Shown piece after piece: positions 3,853 through 40,658 of a stretch of 52,190 nt of DNA. Origin of the DNA: Lachnospiraceae bacterium (lineage in GTDB: Bacteria; Bacillota; Clostridia; Lachnospirales; Lachnospiraceae); contig JAILEM010000112.1 in NCBI GenBank assembly GCA_024687745.1, positions 1-52,190 of the forward strand. The letters are read 5' to 3'. The position numbers and the translations under genes are program-made. The notes below the pieces were generated by a model. That model saw only the letters and a program-made list of their open reading frames with translations. It was not told where the DNA came from and did no database searches. Every line of letters begins with the position of its first letter. Positions within the stretch are counted from its first letter, which is position 1.

Positions 3853-4118
3853 GTCATGCAGCCGGGGAGTTAGCGGCTCTCTGTACCTGAAATCCGCTAT
3901 AGCAGGGGTGATATCCTGCTGAGGGGATACTGCTCCTGTAGCTGCCCTGTATAAGTGGCGTTGATATCCGGGTCTTACGCAATGGGAATCTGTGAACCGT
4001 GTCAGGTCAGGAATGAAGCAGCACTAAGCGGAATCTTCCATGTGCCGTGAGGGTGCCTGGGTTGAGTTAACTGTACAGGTAACGTGCAGGAAATGTTCTT
4101 CGAAGCAGGATGCATGAT
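3853..4118 (+). ncRNA. ffs: Signal recognition particle RNA, large bacterial type
   Basis: About 265 nt, clearly like the B. subtilis small cytoplasmic RNA. It shares GCGGCTCTCTGTACCTGAAA in the Alu region at 3873-3892. The domain IV helix that binds Ffh contains GTCAGGTCAGGAATGAAGCA, followed by CACTAAG, at about 4002-4027, then GTGCCGTGAGGGTGCCTGGG. The ends CATGCA (3855-3860) and TGCATG (4111-4116) can pair, closing the long helix. The RNA forms the SRP core with Ffh and targets membrane proteins to the translocon. No strong terminator follows: only a weak hairpin at about 4124-4140 and a T-rich stretch at 4151-4162 precede the MBOAT gene. Exact ends are estimated. Confidence 0.95.
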
Positions 4119-34745: not shown

Positions 34746-36332
34746 TCAATATCCGCTTGCACCGTAGTTTTTAAGTACCCGGGCAGAGGGATCATTTACA
34801 TTGCAGCCTTCCCATTCTTTATTGGGCATCCAGAAATCCTTTACCATGTGAGACTGTCCCGGATAAAATCCTTCAAAAATATCTCTGTAAAGAAGAGATT
34901 CCTTTGTAAAAGGACGGGCATGGGTATACTTTGAGCATCCCTTTTCAAAATCCTCATCGCTGTATTTCTTTTCAGCATAATCCTTAAGATTATCTACGAG
35001 AGAATGTCCTACAGCATCGGAAAAAGCTGCTTTTTCACGGAACAATATCTCGTCGGGAAGATAATTTCCACCCTCAAACGCATGTCTTAACAGATACTTC
35101 CCCTTATTGTAACGGTTCATCTTCATCTCGGGATCCAATGCCACACAGTATCTGACAAAATCCAGGTCTCCGAAGGGAACCCTTGCCTCGAGGGAATTTA
35201 CGGAGATACATCTGTCCGCTCTTAACACATCGTACATGTGAAGCTCCCTTATCCTCTTCTCCTCTTCCTCCTGAAAAGCCACGGCAGAAGGAGCAAAATC
35301 TGTGTATTTGTATCCGAAGATCTCGTCGGAAACTTCACCTGTAAGTATCACCCTTACATCGGTTTTTTCATGTATCGCCTTACACAAAAGATACATTCCT
35401 ATACTGGCCCTTATAGTTGTTATGTCATAGGTTCCCAAAAGATATATGACATCGGGCAGTGCGTTTATGACATCATCTCTCGAAATATGGACCTCCATAT
35501 GATCCGTACCTAAGAACTCCGCGGTCTGTGCCGCATATTTAAGATCTATCGGATCCTCTTCCATACCAATGGCAAAGGTTCTTATGGGTTTATCACTCTT
35601 CCTCTGGGCTATACTGCAGACAAGAGAAGAATCAAGACCTCCCGAAAGAAGAAAACCGACCTTTGCATCGGAAACAAGCCTTTTTTCAACTGCACTTATA
35701 AGCTTTTCACCTATTTTTCCACACGCCGTTTCAAGATCCTCTTTTATCAGTTCTTCAGGCTTTGATATGTCACAGAACCGTATAAACTCTCCATCCTTAT
35801 AATAACAACCGGGAGGAAAGGGATATATTTTATCTTTACATAAACCTGTAAGATTCTTGGGCTCACTGGCAAAGATCATATTATCGTCCTTATCATATGC
35901 ATAATACAGGGGTCTTATACCTATAGGATCCCTGGCTGCGATAAAGGAATCATTGCTGCTGTCATAAATTATGCAGGCAAATTCGGCATCAAGCATTGCA
36001 AAACAGTCAACTCCGTATTCAAAATACAGGGGCAGCAATATCTCGCAGTCACTGTCGCTTTTAAATGAATATCCCTTTTTAATAAGATCATCTCTTAATT
36101 CTTTGAATCCGTATATCTCTCCGTTACATACAACTCCGCATTTATTAAGAATAAAAGGCTGCATTCCCTCAGAAGTAAGACCCATAATAGAGAGCCGCCT
36201 GAAACCAAGCAGCCCTCCTTCGGTTCTTATTATCCTGCTGTCATCGGGTCCTCTTGATTCTGTTTTATCAAGTGCCGCCTCAAAAGTGCTTTCATCAGCG
36301 CTTTTACTGCACCAGGCCATTATTGAACACAT
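34746..36332 (-). CDS. asnB: Asparagine synthetase B, glutamine-hydrolysing
   Basis: A protein of 528 aa. The glutaminase domain begins with Cys2 (MCSIMAW) and contains ESRGPDDS, GFRRLSIMGL and NGEIYGFKELR. The synthetase domain carries the ATP pyrophosphatase loop LLSGGLDSSLV and LTGEVSDEIFGYKY. It transfers glutamine nitrogen to aspartate. GGAGG lies 9 nt before the ATG. Only 22 nt separate it from glnN, so the glutamine supplier and user are probably co-transcribed. Confidence 0.96.
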   Translation of the reverse strand: MCSIMAWCSKSADESTFEAALDKTESRGPDDSRIIRTEGGLLGFRRLSIMGLTSEGMQPFILNKCGVVCNGEIYGFKELRDDLIKKGYSFKSDSDCEILLPLYFEYGVDCFAMLDAEFACIIYDSSNDSFIAARDPIGIRPLYYAYDKDDNMIFASEPKNLTGLCKDKIYPFPPGCYYKDGEFIRFCDISKPEELIKEDLETACGKIGEKLISAVEKRLVSDAKVGFLLSGGLDSSLVCSIAQRKSDKPIRTFAIGMEEDPIDLKYAAQTAEFLGTDHMEVHISRDDVINALPDVIYLLGTYDITTIRASIGMYLLCKAIHEKTDVRVILTGEVSDEIFGYKYTDFAPSAVAFQEEEEKRIRELHMYDVLRADRCISVNSLEARVPFGDLDFVRYCVALDPEMKMNRYNKGKYLLRHAFEGGNYLPDEILFREKAAFSDAVGHSLVDNLKDYAEKKYSDEDFEKGCSKYTHARPFTKESLLYRDIFEGFYPGQSHMVKDFWMPNKEWEGCNVNDPSARVLKNYGASGY

Positions 36333-36354: not shown

Positions 36355-38469
36355 TTATCTGACACTAAAGAGCATATCTCCGTATGAGGGGAACGGCCAG
36401 CATTCAGATGATACGATAGTCTCCGCCTCATCTGCCGAGGCTCTCAATTCTCCCATCTTTGAAAGCAATGTGTCACGGATCATAGCGCTTTCCCCTATTA
36501 TATCCTCAGCATCTGAGAGCTTGAGGATGGCCTTTTCCAGTTCCATGCTCCTGTCATATATCTGATCGGCAAGTACAGAAAGCCTTGAGATAACGGTTTT
36601 TTCATATGAACAGGCAAGACCTTCCGATATTGCAAGCTTATCTGATACTGTCTTTGAAAGCTTGTCAGCATAACACTCAATAGCAGGCAGTATCTGTCTA
36701 AGAGCCATATCTATCATGGTATTTGCTTCTATTCTCACCTGCTTGCAATAATTCTCAAGCATTATCTCACAACGGGATTCAAGCTCTGCCTTACTGAAAA
36801 CCTTATGCTTAAGTAACATTTCCACATTTTTCTCATCCAAGAGATGAGGCATACAATCAGGAGTGGTCCTGTAGTTTGATAATCCCCTGACCTCAGTGGC
36901 TTCCTTTACCCAGGCATCATCATATCCGTTTCCGTTAAACAATATCCTCTTATGATCTGAAATGGTCTGTCTGATCATCTCATGAAGAGTCTTTTCAAAG
37001 TCCTCGGCGCTTTCAAGCTTATCTGCATAATGCTCCAAAGATTCGGCAACAGCTGCATTAAGCATTATATTTGCACATGCTATGCTGTTTGATGAACCAA
37101 GACTTCTGAACTCAAATTTATTACCTGTAAACGCAAAGGGTGAAGTTCTGTTCCTGTCAGTGGTATCTCTTGGAAAGGCGGGCAGTACATCCACACCGAG
37201 CTTCATTATCTTTTTCTCTGTTCCGTTATAAGGCTTATCATGCTCTATCGCATCAAGGATCGCACTGAGTTCATCACCTAAAAATACCGAAATTATAGCA
37301 GGAGGTGCCTCATTGGCTCCGAGTCTGTGGTCATTTCCGGCAGTTGCCACAGAAAGTCTCAAAAGATCCTGGTAATCATCCACAGCCTTTATAACTGCAC
37401 ATAAGAACAGAAGAAACTGTGCATTCTCATAAGGGGTATCTCCGGGTGAAAGAAGGTTCACGCCCTTATCCGTAGACATCGACCAGTTATTATGTTTTCC
37501 GCTTCCGTTAACTCCGGCAAAAGGCTTCTCATGAAGCAGGCATACCAGACCGTGCCTTGCCGCCACCTTCTGCATTATCTCCATCGTAAGCTGGTTCTGG
37601 TCAGTTGCGATATTTGTGGTCGAATAAATGGGAGCAAGCTCATGCTGGGCGGGTGATACCTCATTATGCTCTGTTTTAACAAGGATACCCAGTTTCCATA
37701 GCTCCTCGTTAAGATCGTTCATAAACTCCTGAACCCTGGGCTTTATTACTCCAAAGTAGTGATCATCCATCTCCTGTCCCTTGGGTGACTTTGCTCCATA
37801 AAGTGTTCTTCCCGTAAAGCGAAGGTCCGGTCTTTGGTCAAACATCTCCTTTGTTATGAGGAAGTATTCCTGCTCCGGTCCTACTGAAGTCCTTACATTT
37901 TTTGCCGATGTATTTCCAAACAGGCGAAGTATGCGAAGAGCCTGTCTGTTAAGTGCTTCCATCGATCTGAGTAACGGGGTCTTTTTGTCCAGTGCTTCAC
38001 CGCCGTATGAGCAGAATGCTGTAGGTATACAGAGAACCTTATCCTTGATAAAGGCATATGATGTGGGATCCCATGCCGTATATCCCCTTGCTTCAAAAGT
38101 TGCCCTGATCCCTCCGGTAGGGAAGGAGGATGCATCCGGCTCACCCTGTATGAGCTCCTTTCCCGAAAATTCCATGATAACACTGCCATCGGGTGAAGGA
38201 GCGATAAAAGAATCATGCTTTTCTGCCGTAACTCCTGTAAGCGGCTGGAACCAGTGTGTAAAATGTGTTGCTCCCTTTTCAAGAGCCCACTCCTTCATTG
38301 CCTGTGCAACTGATTCAGCTACCATTGAATCGATCTTTTTTCCCTCATCGATAGTCTTGCGAAGAGAAGCATAGACTTTGGATGAAAGCCTTGATCTCAT
38401 CTGACGGTCGTCAAAAACCATTGATCCAAAATAATCCGGTACTGATCTTGTTTCCATAATTGTTTTCAT
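36355..38469 (-). CDS. glnN: Glutamine synthetase type III
   Basis: A protein of 704 aa, the usual GSIII length. GSIII signatures include [45 protein letters not shown], the ATP-site [10 protein letters not shown] and EFRSLGSSN. It joins ammonia to glutamate in a dodecamer. The AAGGAGG site lies 9 nt before the ATG. The leader has its own promoter and a 25-bp hairpin like the one before glnA. The order glnA, ANTAR regulator, glnN, asnB is on one strand. Having both GSI-like and GSIII enzymes side by side suggests differential use. Confidence 0.97.
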
Positions 38470-38503
38470 AATACATTTCCTCCTTAAACTTTTTGGAAAC
38501 AGA

Positions 38504-38557
38504 AAAAGACAAAGACGTCTTTTCTGTAATCTTACAAAAAAGACGCCTTTGCCTTTT
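38504..38557 (-). promoter_or_regulatory. Leader hairpin / candidate attenuator of glnN
   Basis: The minus strand RNA folds into a 25-bp stem (533-557 with 504-528 within 38 kb) with three G-U pairs and the tetraloop AGAU, followed by GUCUUUUUCUGUUU partly within the stem base. GCAAAGGCGT (38543-38552) is part of the 5' arm. The 5' arm begins only about 9 nt after the -10. It could end transcription unless opened, and leaves 34 nt to the glnN ATG. Confidence 0.75.
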
Positions 38558-38565
38558 CATGTGAT

Positions 38566-38594
38566 ACGATACTACTGCTTCAGATTAATGTCAA
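38566..38594 (-). promoter_or_regulatory. Promoter of glnN with palindrome at the -35
   Basis: Minus strand TTGACA (38589-38594), 17-nt spacer, TATCGT (38566-38571). The -35 sits inside the inverted repeat CAGATTAATGTCAATCTG (38581-38598), a possible operator. A second hairpin, TAAACAG-N6-CTGTTTA, at 38614-38633 lies just after the ANTAR gene stop. Confidence 0.65.
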
Positions 38595-38641
38595 TCTGAT
38601 TTTTTATTTATCATAAACAGATTTTTCTGTTTACATGATCA

Positions 38642-39226
38642 TTAACTATAGGTTTTCAGGATATTTTCAGCTGTTTCCTTTTTACTTATGCACATATCCA
38701 TGGCCTGCTTCTGTATATATCTGTGTGCATCCTCCTCTGTCATGTGGCAGGATTTTATAAGTGCCCACTTGGCTCTGTTCACAAGCCTTATCTCTTCCAT
38801 CTTATCCTCTAAGGAAACCGTCTTTTTCCTGATCCCCCTAAGCTTCTCCCTGACACTGCACATAGCATCGAAGAGCTGCTCCATTACCAGGTTGTCAATG
38901 GGCCTTTTTGAGACCATTACTCCGTGAGGCATCATCGAAAAGCTTATTTCATCGTACAGGTCACTCCTGACTATGAGTAATGCAACCTTATCACTGTCCT
39001 TGGATACATCCACAGCAAATTTCTTACCGAAATCATCGGGAAGAGGTGAATTGATCACGACAAGATCATAGTCCATGTCCACTATCTTTCTTTGCGCCTT
39101 GGCTACGGTATCCACTACGGTAACCGATTCAAACCTGTCTCTTGAGAATAAGGGCATGAGTTCAGTATTCACTTTTTTTGCTGCCGAAACAAGCAGCACA
39201 CTGTATATATGCCTTGACAGAGCCAT
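38642..39226 (-). CDS. ANTAR-domain regulator with degenerate receiver
   Basis: A protein of 194 aa. Residues 5-120 resemble a response-regulator receiver, but the phosphoacceptor site reads DLVVINSPLP with Asn59 where Asp is expected. Residues 130-190 form an ANTAR domain: a helical stretch, RLVNRAKWALIKSCHMTEED, then AHRYIQKQAMDMCISKKETA. ANTAR proteins bind RNA and prevent termination in leaders, as in NasR, AmiR and EutV. It lies between glnA and glnN, both with terminator-like leaders, and so is the obvious candidate regulator. A hairpin (39245-39261) precedes its own ribosome site GGAAGG. Confidence 0.9.
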   Translation of the reverse strand: MALSRHIYSVLLVSAAKKVNTELMPLFSRDRFESVTVVDTVAKAQRKIVDMDYDLVVINSPLPDDFGKKFAVDVSKDSDKVALLIVRSDLYDEISFSMMPHGVMVSKRPIDNLVMEQLFDAMCSVREKLRGIRKKTVSLEDKMEEIRLVNRAKWALIKSCHMTEEDAHRYIQKQAMDMCISKKETAENILKTYS

Positions 39227-39244
39227 TTACTTTCCTTCCTCGGT

Positions 39245-39261
39245 CAGGATAAAATATCCTG
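39245..39261 (-). promoter_or_regulatory. Small hairpin before the ANTAR gene
   Basis: Perfect 7-bp stem CAGGATA/TATCCTG with a 3-nt loop, about 20 nt upstream of the ANTAR start on the minus strand. It has no U run, so it is not a terminator; it may affect translation or be a processing site. Confidence 0.45.
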
Positions 39262-39335
39262 TAATGATCAGGTCAAAAAAATAACTTTTAACCGGTTGTA
39301 TCTCCTTACTTTTTTACTTATCCGGATGTCAATAC

Positions 39336-40550
39336 TCAGACCATGTCGGAATAAGCCTTAAGTATCTCCCCGGGAAGATATTTCTTAATAAATGCACTGT
39401 CCTTTGCAGCTTTAACAGCCTCTTTAAGGGACAAAGGAAGTTTGTCATATTCTTTAAGCTCTGACTCCTCAGCCAGGAAAAGATTCTTTTCAATGGCTTT
39501 TGGAGGATCAAGCTTTCCTTCGAGTCCGTAAAGACCTGCATAGATCAGTAACCCAAAAGCAAGATAAGGATTTGCCATTGTATCGGGGGATCTGAGTTCA
39601 CCTCTTTCGTGATTCCCGCTAAGTGCCGGTATACGTATAAGAGTTGAACGGTTTTCCTTTGCCCAGGTAATATAGCCCGGTGCCATAAAGGTTCCAAGCC
39701 TGTCATAGGATTCCTTAACAGGATTTAAAAACAGGGTCATATCTCTTGCGTTATCAAGGATTCCGGCTACTACAGGCATAAGATCCACATCCCTGTCCTT
39801 TGACCTCACGGAAAAATTGATATGCAGACCGTTCCCCGGTTTATCTTTTATCGGCTTTGGTGAAAAGTCCGCTTTCACACCGTTTCTGTTTGCTATGGCA
39901 TTTACAACGCTTCTGAAGGTCATAGCATCATCAGCAGCCTTTAATGCCTCACAGTATCTGAAGTCTATCTCATTCTGTCCGGGTCCCTCCTCATGGTGAG
40001 AGCTCTCGGGAGATATGCACATCTGTTCAAGTGTCATGCAAATTTCCCTTCTTATATTTTCTCCCCTGTCCCTTGGACCTATGTCCATATATCCTGCAGT
40101 ATCAAAGGGAATCTTTGAGCTTCCTTCTTCATCGTCATTACAGAAAAGGTAAAATTCCTGCTCTGTTCCGAAATGGAAAACATATCCTTTGCTTTTTGCA
40201 TCCTTTATCGCCTTTTGGAGAAAATATCTGGTATCGCACATAAAAGGAGTTCTGTCGGGCCATGTTATGTCACAGTACATTCTGACAACTCTTCCATGCT
40301 CCGGTCTCCAGGGCAGAACAGCCAGAGTAGACGGATCCGGATGAAGAATAATATCCGACCTGTCAAAAATATCAAACCCGGAAACTGCCCAGGCATCGAT
40401 GGCGATACCCTCATCAAAAGCCCTGTCCAGTTCGGATGACATGATCGATATGTTTTTCTGATTTCCAAATACATCACAAAATGCAAGACGTATAAATTTT
40501 ACATCTTCCTCTTCCACAAACTGTTTAACTTCCTGCTCTGTGTAGTTCAT
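39336..40550 (-). CDS. glnA: Glutamine synthetase type I-like, short form
   Basis: A protein of 404 aa. N-terminal beta-grasp (DVKFIRLAFCDVFGNQKNIS) and catalytic blocks GTEQEFYLF, ESSHHEEGPGQNEIDFRY, NGLHINFS and ENRSTLIRIPA are present. It is about 40 residues shorter than B. subtilis GlnA, lacking the C-terminal tail. The residue aligned with Arg62, needed for glutamine feedback inhibition in B. subtilis, is Ile61 (GFDIFDRSD), and the GSS loop is altered. It is likely a true synthetase with different feedback, but a gamma-glutamylamide synthetase cannot be excluded. GGGAGG precedes the ATG, right after its leader terminator. Confidence 0.92.
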   Translation of the reverse strand: MNYTEQEVKQFVEEEDVKFIRLAFCDVFGNQKNISIMSSELDRAFDEGIAIDAWAVSGFDIFDRSDIILHPDPSTLAVLPWRPEHGRVVRMYCDITWPDRTPFMCDTRYFLQKAIKDAKSKGYVFHFGTEQEFYLFCNDDEEGSSKIPFDTAGYMDIGPRDRGENIRREICMTLEQMCISPESSHHEEGPGQNEIDFRYCEALKAADDAMTFRSVVNAIANRNGVKADFSPKPIKDKPGNGLHINFSVRSKDRDVDLMPVVAGILDNARDMTLFLNPVKESYDRLGTFMAPGYITWAKENRSTLIRIPALSGNHERGELRSPDTMANPYLAFGLLIYAGLYGLEGKLDPPKAIEKNLFLAEESELKEYDKLPLSLKEAVKAAKDSAFIKKYLPGEILKAYSDMV

Positions 40551-40565
40551 AAAACCTCCCTAAAT

Positions 40566-40616
40566 AAAAAACGTTCATTTCACCCGGCTTATGCCTTTTG
40601 AAATGAACGCCTTTGC
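40566..40616 (-). terminator. Leader terminator / candidate attenuator of glnA
   Basis: Minus strand: an 11-bp stem CGTTCATTTCA/TGAAATGAACG (599-609 with 572-582 within 40 kb), a loop with an inner GGC/GCC pair, then six U (40566-40571). The 5' arm starts in GCAAAGGCGT (40607-40616), the same decamer as before glnN. The GGGAGG ribosome site of glnA follows within about 8 nt, so the terminator is inside the glnA leader and not at the end of another gene. Confidence 0.85.
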
Positions 40617-40629
40617 TCACTTTTTGTGA

Positions 40630-40658
40630 ATTATACAATATAAAAATATTAAAGTCAA
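40630..40658 (-). promoter_or_regulatory. Promoter of glnA
   Basis: Minus strand TTGACT (40653-40658), 17-nt spacer and consensus TATAAT (40630-40635). It lies between the bioB stop and glnA. GCAAAGGCGT begins exactly 13 nt after the -10, as at glnN. Confidence 0.82.

Follow-up and report, generated by a model that had tools for sequence, protein, structure and literature searches.

The window that we analysed is a stretch of 52,190 nucleotides (nt) from a Lachnospiraceae bacterium (contig JAILEM010000112.1 of assembly GCA_024687745.1), and our subject is the leader RNAs of two glutamine synthetase (GS) genes within it, glnA and glnN. The gene order on the minus strand is glnA, a gene for an ANTAR protein, glnN and asnB. 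Judging from comparison with related bacteria, we consider it highly probable that both leaders belong to a nitrogen regulon under ANTAR antitermination, acting on a single hexaloop hairpin at the 5' end of the RNA.

The glnA-glnN locus

All features of the locus are on the minus strand. The glnA gene (39336-40550) encodes a type I GS of 404 amino acids that aligns with solved GS chains (Pfam Gln-synt_C, 2e-83). Directly downstream of it, at 38642-39226, is the gene for the ANTAR protein, which has a pseudo-receiver (Pfam ANTAR, 6.7e-15); an earlier note, made from the sequence of this DNA alone, was right to place an ANTAR gene between the two synthetase genes. No terminator is predicted between glnA and the ANTAR gene in the window, so the glnA leader probably governs both. 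The glnN gene (36355-38469) encodes a type III GS of 704 amino acids (Pfam GSIII_N, 3.8e-81). It is followed after 22 nt by the asparagine synthase gene asnB (34746-36332; Pfam Asn_synthase, 6.5e-74), which, to judge from this spacing, probably shares an operon with glnN.

Both synthetase genes have a recognizable promoter. For glnA it consists of TTGACT (40658-40653) and TATAAT (40635-40630), separated by 17 nt and agreeing with the consensus at 11 of 12 positions; for glnN it consists of TTGACA (38594-38589) and TATCGT (38571-38566), again with a 17 nt spacer and with 10 of 12 matches. The same decamer, GCAAAGGCGT, lies 13 nt past the -10 element in each case (40616-40607 for glnA, 38552-38543 for glnN), exactly as the earlier note had described.

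A hexaloop hairpin that excludes a terminator

Read as RNA, the decamer is a hexaloop plus two closing pairs, GC[AAAGGC]GU. The flanking bases lengthen the stem to 8 base pairs (bp) in both leaders, with different stem sequences. In the glnA leader the putative antiterminator is AAGUGAGC[AAAGGC]GUUCAUUU (40601-40622; stem 40622-40615/40608-40601, loop 40614-40609), with a folding energy of -6.1 kcal/mol; in the glnN leader it is GAAAAGGC[AAAGGC]GUCUUUUU (38537-38558; loop 38550-38545), with -5.7 kcal/mol. The statement that the leaders differ outside the decamer thus stands for sequence and fails for fold. Both loops have the A1 and G4 that mark ANTAR targets: these two positions are reported to be conserved and required in ANTAR target loops, where the sequence of the closing pairs also matters (PMC3369931; this and the other papers are cited here for passages of their text). 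The hairpins begin at about the predicted transcription start, near 40623 for glnA and 38559 for glnN, so that the P1 hexaloop found upstream in the ANTAR leaders studied so far would not fit in.

The bases of each hexaloop 3' arm, together with the GGC of the loop, serve a second time as the 5' arm of a terminator that is much stronger, and only one of the two folds can form at a time. In the glnA leader (40566-40612) the terminator 5' arm is formed by G4, G5 and C6 of the loop plus the hexaloop 3' arm; the stem of about 10-11 bp is followed by six U (40571-40566), and the folded segment has -23.4 kcal/mol. In the glnN leader (38503-38558) a stem of about 25 bp with an AGAU loop and a U-rich 3' end gives -31.9 kcal/mol. 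The claim that the decamers feed strong hairpins ending before the ribosome site is therefore borne out. Given how far the terminators exceed the hexaloop hairpins in strength, we infer that termination is the default, to be relieved by a protein that holds the hairpin.

The decamer alone is not rare. The 3.15 Mb genome has 6 copies of it and 7 of a reversed control pattern; three of the six head leaders of nitrogen genes (glnA, glnN and gdhA). Covariance models add gltB, bringing the sites in this genome to four, all with an overlapping terminator. Two such models were used: R1 describes the hairpin only, with no promoter columns, and R2 the promoter plus hairpin. In whole-genome searches the glnA hairpin has E-values of 7.6e-4 (R1) and 3.1e-7 (R2), and the glnN hairpin 1.3e-3 and 5.2e-7, both sites being in the training set of both models. 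R1 ranks the glnA, glnN, gdhA and gltB sites first; two further matches have E 0.8 and 2.1. The glnN leader is highly palindromic, and its plus strand also shows a hexaloop hairpin at 38503-38524 (loop AAAGAC), probably as a by-product; this mirror of the palindrome is the fifth-ranked R1 match and was not counted as a site.

Conservation in relatives

The comparison set is made up of 80 loci with an ANTAR gene, chosen as the best among at least 590 candidates. In 58 of them R2 finds 111 sites in all; of the 22 loci with no R2 match, 20 are cut by a contig end. The loop consensus is close to AANGGC, with A1 in 110 of the 111 sites and A2 and G4 in every one. Among 110 distinct rows, 107 have G-U for their second pair, four of the six hairpin pairs show compensatory change, and conservation is higher in the loop than in the outer arms. 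Pairing is kept in 97.4% of cells against 78.9% in shuffles, and the covariation score is 0.578 against 0.239; none of the 500 shuffles equalled the real score, and with the 3' partner slid it does not exceed 0.167. The alignment behind these figures was fitted to the model and is dominated by two stem classes. The seed alignment, whose stems were chosen for pairing, scores 0.715 against 0.281 shuffled. The two main classes of stem are GAGC/GUUC and AGGC/GUCU.

Terminator overlap was examined twice. In the first test, which allowed only stems starting inside the loop, the rates of terminators at -8 kcal/mol were 80% for the 111 R2 sites and 24% for 471 shuffles; this test missed the glnN and gltB leaders of the present genome because their stems run through the 5' arm. 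In the final test the permitted stem start was widened for leaders and controls alike and TTTT was required. By this rule 102 of the 111 sites have a terminator that overlaps the hexaloop 3' arm, compared with 30% of the 333 shuffled tails; at -18 kcal/mol or lower the shares are 88% and 12%. The median distance from the loop to the terminator tract is about 50 nt.

Of the 157 R1 matches, 150 were aligned, and 105 of these have a promoter score of at least 10 of 12; of 12,200 positions taken at random, 2.4% reach 9. Among the 105, the -10 element ends 13-17 nt before A1 in 98, and the spacer is 17 nt in 92. The distance from the -10 element to the base of the stem is 6-11 nt in 99 of the 111 sites, so that the RNA should start at the hairpin or within a few bases of it; the hexaloop hairpin is thus predicted to sit at the RNA 5' end. 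These comparisons included the conservation of decamer, spacing and pairing on which the earlier note had staked its proposal, and the proposal survived them.

No excess of second hexaloops with a stem of at least 4 bp was found: they occur upstream of 4 of the 111 sites against 3.0% of shuffles, and downstream of 4 of the 111 against 4.2%. The earlier note, which saw no canonical dual hexaloop, was right in this. Some leaders do contain tandem units. Among 46 sites found by R1 only, 28 are second units downstream of an R2 site, 56-152 nt away; a T-run lies between the two in 26 of the 28, and the promoter score of every second unit is below 9. Twenty of them precede type III GS genes and five precede gdhA. 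They look like stacked attenuators. Tandem hexaloop units within one leader also occur in loci L078, L082 and L092.

A separate observation is that 41 of the 58 loci with a site carry two divergent hexaloop leaders back to back, with a gap of at most 350 nt (for example L132:3543-3685 and L179:3324-3500). The commonest targets in these loci are genes with the amidotransferase domain of glutamate synthase (GOGAT) and type III GS genes.

Target genes and association with ANTAR genes

In relatives the unit precedes glnA, glnN, GOGAT, gdhA, asnB, pyrG, purF, purC, glnK and amtB genes. Targets were named partly with reference proteins drawn from the same sites, so that some labelling is circular, while the Pfam names are independent. 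In a sample of 150 genomes of the same family, 50 places have an E-value of 1e-3 or lower. Of these, 49 were read (G051:C38:6861 was left out), and 47 of the 49 lie before a nitrogen- or glutamine-linked gene if purC and an ABC binding protein are counted in. The genes are type III GS (15), type I GS (10), GOGAT amidotransferase-domain protein (5), gltB (5), gdhA (3), pyrG (3), asnB (3), purC (1), purF (1) and the ABC binding protein (1), with two unassigned. In an order-wide sample, where 29 of 46 listed places were read (four of the 46 being in the present genome), the figure is 27 of 29: GOGAT amidotransferase 16, amtB 5, type III GS 4, gdhA 1 and purC 1. In the ANTAR-bearing loci 106 of 111 sites precede a nitrogen-linked gene, but those loci were picked by the ANTAR gene, which is itself located in the midst of such genes. 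The weaker family matches lie, among others, before P-II genes and before an ammonium transporter gene with a P-II fusion. One ammonium transporter with a C-terminal P-II domain stands behind a hexaloop leader at L107:1476-3224 (minus strand). Of seven weaker family matches that were read (E above 1e-3, L106-L112), L106 and L112 look false, as they have no good hexaloop hairpin or terminator.

The presence of the unit follows that of ANTAR genes. A protein-only search at 1e-10 found such genes in just 25 of the 150 family genomes, an undercount; the Pfam model found them in 131, leaving 19 ANTAR-negative. R2 matches at E 0.01 occur in 62 of the 131 and in none of the 19 (p 2e-5; this and the following p-values overstate independence and are a guide only, since the genomes are related and the family, order and genus samples share some of them). 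A stricter limit of E 1e-3 leaves 34 of the 131 and again none of the 19 (p 0.007); restricted to family genomes with a completeness of 90% or more, the counts are 56 of 114 and 0 of 12 (p 0.001). The order sample at E 1e-3 gives 33 of 132 ANTAR-positive genomes and 1 of 64 ANTAR-negative ones (p 1e-5), and the genus sample at E 0.01 gives 19 of 33 and 0 of 4 (p 0.046). By their own statement, the R2 search filters lose weak matches. Eighteen ANTAR-linked loci were rescanned at E up to 1, with three matches in two loci, which means that many divergent ANTAR loci have no site near the gene.

The earlier note saw in the decamer the key to a paired attenuation switch and connected this switch with the ANTAR gene. 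The comparative evidence supports such a switch well; the restriction to a pair has to be given up: there are four sites in this genome and many in relatives.

Outside the subject of this work, the window contains a bacterial large signal recognition particle RNA at 3854-4117 on the plus strand (Rfam RF01854, 190.5 bits).

The ANTAR protein

The ANTAR domain scores 55 bits against a curated Pfam cut-off of 27.3. A structural model of the protein (mean predicted local distance difference test 85.6, predicted template modelling score 0.63) matches EutV, Rv1626 and AmiR best, with an E-value of 6.5e-7 for the AmiR fold. Placed by alignment to Rv1626, N59 stands at the phospho-Asp position of the receiver, and Asn is found there in 27 of 27 relatives and in 15 of 16 more divergent ones. 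With Asn in this place, the signal is probably not classical phosphorylation. Seven RNA-contact residues of EutV (listed in PMC8934654) were mapped on an alignment, with an inferred numbering offset of 2: K149, E160 and M172 are kept in the ANTAR protein, K143 and K147 are replaced by Arg, and Y164 is replaced by His, as in AmiR. Most of the contacts are thus conserved or exchanged for a similar residue, R142 being the exception.

In 75 of the 75 loci with enough contig for the test, among the 80 best, a type I GS gene lies directly upstream of the ANTAR gene. By analogy with AmiC and AmiR, and with the GS of Bacillus, which acts on TnrA (PMC6316151), glutamine synthetase may be the nitrogen sensor for the ANTAR protein.

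Proposed mechanism and alternatives

If the two leaders work as their folds suggest, each RNA would start with a hairpin whose AAAGGC loop is the ANTAR target. When no protein is bound, this weak hairpin would give up its 3' arm and loop to the terminator before the ribosome site, and transcription would stop early. The neighbouring ANTAR protein, when active (probably under nitrogen limitation), would bind the hexaloop and hold the first hairpin. Polymerase could then pass into glnA and the ANTAR gene, glnN and asnB, gdhA and gltB. A more speculative suggestion is that one 5'-terminal hexaloop suffices with no recruitment hairpin and that the synthetase encoded upstream is the sensor: glutamine-bound GS would hold the ANTAR protein and free it when glutamine falls, much as AmiC does with AmiR. 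We regard this combination as doubtful, and put it forward tentatively.

Several observations weigh against ANTAR control by a single hexaloop. At E 0.01 an R2 match is missing from 69 of the 131 ANTAR-positive family genomes, meaning that the unit is common and not universal. Two of the 62 genomes with a match rest on one false-looking match each; leaving them out gives 60 of 131 (p 3e-5), and the relatedness of the genomes noted above applies here too. The only ANTAR-negative genome with a site in the order sample, G268, has a contig that ends 0.8 kb beyond it; on the side that is cut, G317 and G355 of the same genus carry an ANTAR gene about 7 kb away. The 111 sites were found with R2, whose model contains the promoter. 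Nine of them have no terminator by the rule used, and swapping arms between leaders leaves a high control (61% at -8 and 44% at -18 kcal/mol), which we attribute to the two main stem classes. In the protein, I146 stands where EutV has R142. Finally, in Enterococcus faecalis deletion of P1 lowers eutP induction (PMC3369931), and a linker longer by 20 nt abolishes antitermination in vitro (PMC8934654); a single loop would have to work differently.

Another reading is that these are ordinary dual-hexaloop leaders, with P1 lying upstream behind an earlier true start or with a second loop too degenerate to be seen. The ANTAR leaders studied in detail, in the passages cited, are indeed dual, and 28 second units do occur in leaders of relatives. 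Yet a near-consensus promoter lies immediately upstream of the hairpin, second hexaloops on either side are at the level of shuffles, and the tandem units are 56-152 nt apart with a T-run between 26 of the 28, whereas in the E. faecalis eut leaders the linker measures 5-12 nt. We think this unlikely. Alternatively, the decamer and its inverted flanks could be a DNA operator, bound by a transcription factor that blocks polymerase, and the terminator could be incidental. An inverted repeat at a narrow distance from the -10 element is what one would expect of an operator. Its arms, however, vary in sequence while pairing is kept, the loop is conserved above the outer arms, and the nearly constant second pair, G-U, is a mismatch in a DNA palindrome and a pair in RNA. 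Moreover, the 3' arm is reused in a terminator at 102 sites, and the 28 second copies lie downstream with no promoter of their own scoring 9 or more. An operator is accordingly very improbable to us. Least probable of all is an attenuator that is read by a metabolite, a translating ribosome or another protein, with the 5' hairpin mainly stabilizing the mRNA. The predicted 5'-terminal position would suit a stabilizing hairpin, but there is no space for a leader peptide ahead of it, the loop is conserved in the manner of the ANTAR rule, and the unit tracks the ANTAR gene across genomes. No Rfam family reaches its gathering score in the leaders either; microRNA models alone match below threshold, a consequence of the long glnN palindrome.

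Comparison with known systems

ANTAR antitermination on a single 5'-terminal hexaloop would have one of its closest known counterparts in the eut leaders of E. faecalis and their protein EutV. The two share a hexaloop with A1 and G4, a C-G closing pair beside a purine-U pair, a 3' arm held in common with the terminator, and a REC-coiled coil-ANTAR protein fold. The closing bases differ in detail, eutP having A-C before and G-U after the loop where the window leaders have G-C and G-U. Further differences are that eut needs two hexaloops at a set linker whereas the present leaders have one, placed at the predicted RNA 5' end, and that EutV is phosphorylated on Asp where the Lachnospiraceae protein has Asn. 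AmiR, of the Pseudomonas aeruginosa amidase operon, is likewise a pseudo-receiver ANTAR protein, under control of a partner protein (PMC8934654), with a matching fold and with His in place of the loop-stacking Tyr. Its partner AmiC is an amide receptor, whereas the adjacent gene here is a glutamine synthetase, for which a sensing role can be suggested.

ANTAR control of GS/GOGAT genes in Clostridia is itself already known from the sources cited. NitR of Clostridium saccharobutylicum, said to be capable of antitermination, reportedly induces GS/GOGAT genes upon nitrogen limitation (review PMC6316151). In C. thermocellum the expression of an ANTAR gene mirrors that of the GS-GOGAT-ANTAR cluster to which it belongs (Clo1313_2030-2036), and control has been proposed (PMC4676874). 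Both resemble the present case in having the ANTAR gene within a GS-GOGAT cluster; the passages of these two papers give no RNA target motif. The term ANTAR does not appear in the searched text of PMC2965389 and PMC8632094. ANTAR leaders before P-II, ammonium transporter and glutamate/glutamine synthase genes were predicted in 2012, for example in Desulfotomaculum (PMC3369931), with a dual-hairpin model that should miss single-loop leaders. The same dual-hairpin rule served for the actinobacterial leaders predicted in 2021 (PMC8164766).

Targets need not be dual, as far as the passages of PMC8934654 go. These name an extra single hexaloop in EutX and loops in some mycobacterial RNAs. EutX differs from our leaders in that it acts by sequestration and contains a dual motif as well; the mycobacterial RNAs differ in being described at ribosome sites and 5' untranslated regions. 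No single-hexaloop terminator leader is named in those passages, and we recognized no publication describing one, in a literature search that reached few subscription texts and so is weak evidence of absence. As far as that search goes, what appears to be new is a regulon whose standard unit joins one 5'-terminal hexaloop to a terminator. The two-hairpin feature having been looked for and not found, we class the leaders as a variant of ANTAR-type antitermination outside the dual-hexaloop class. The suggestion that the mechanism may be new is thereby narrowed: with the decamer itself an ANTAR-type hexaloop, the mechanism is probably the known one, and it is the single-loop target that is unusual.

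Walshe and colleagues concluded that an ANTAR dimer grips one loop at a time, yet eut needs both to overcome the terminator (PMC8934654). The leaders described here look like single-hexaloop sites in the situation that the EutV model leaves out, where the terminator tract follows the loop at a median distance of about 50 nt. The extent to which single hexaloops serve as sites was left open in 2022, and these leaders offer a natural system for that question. Nitrogen control in many gut Clostridia would gain a simple, predictable RNA code, which searches for two loops should miss. If both the single loop and the GS sensor are correct, a nitrogen switch of this kind would be widespread in a family of gut Clostridia.

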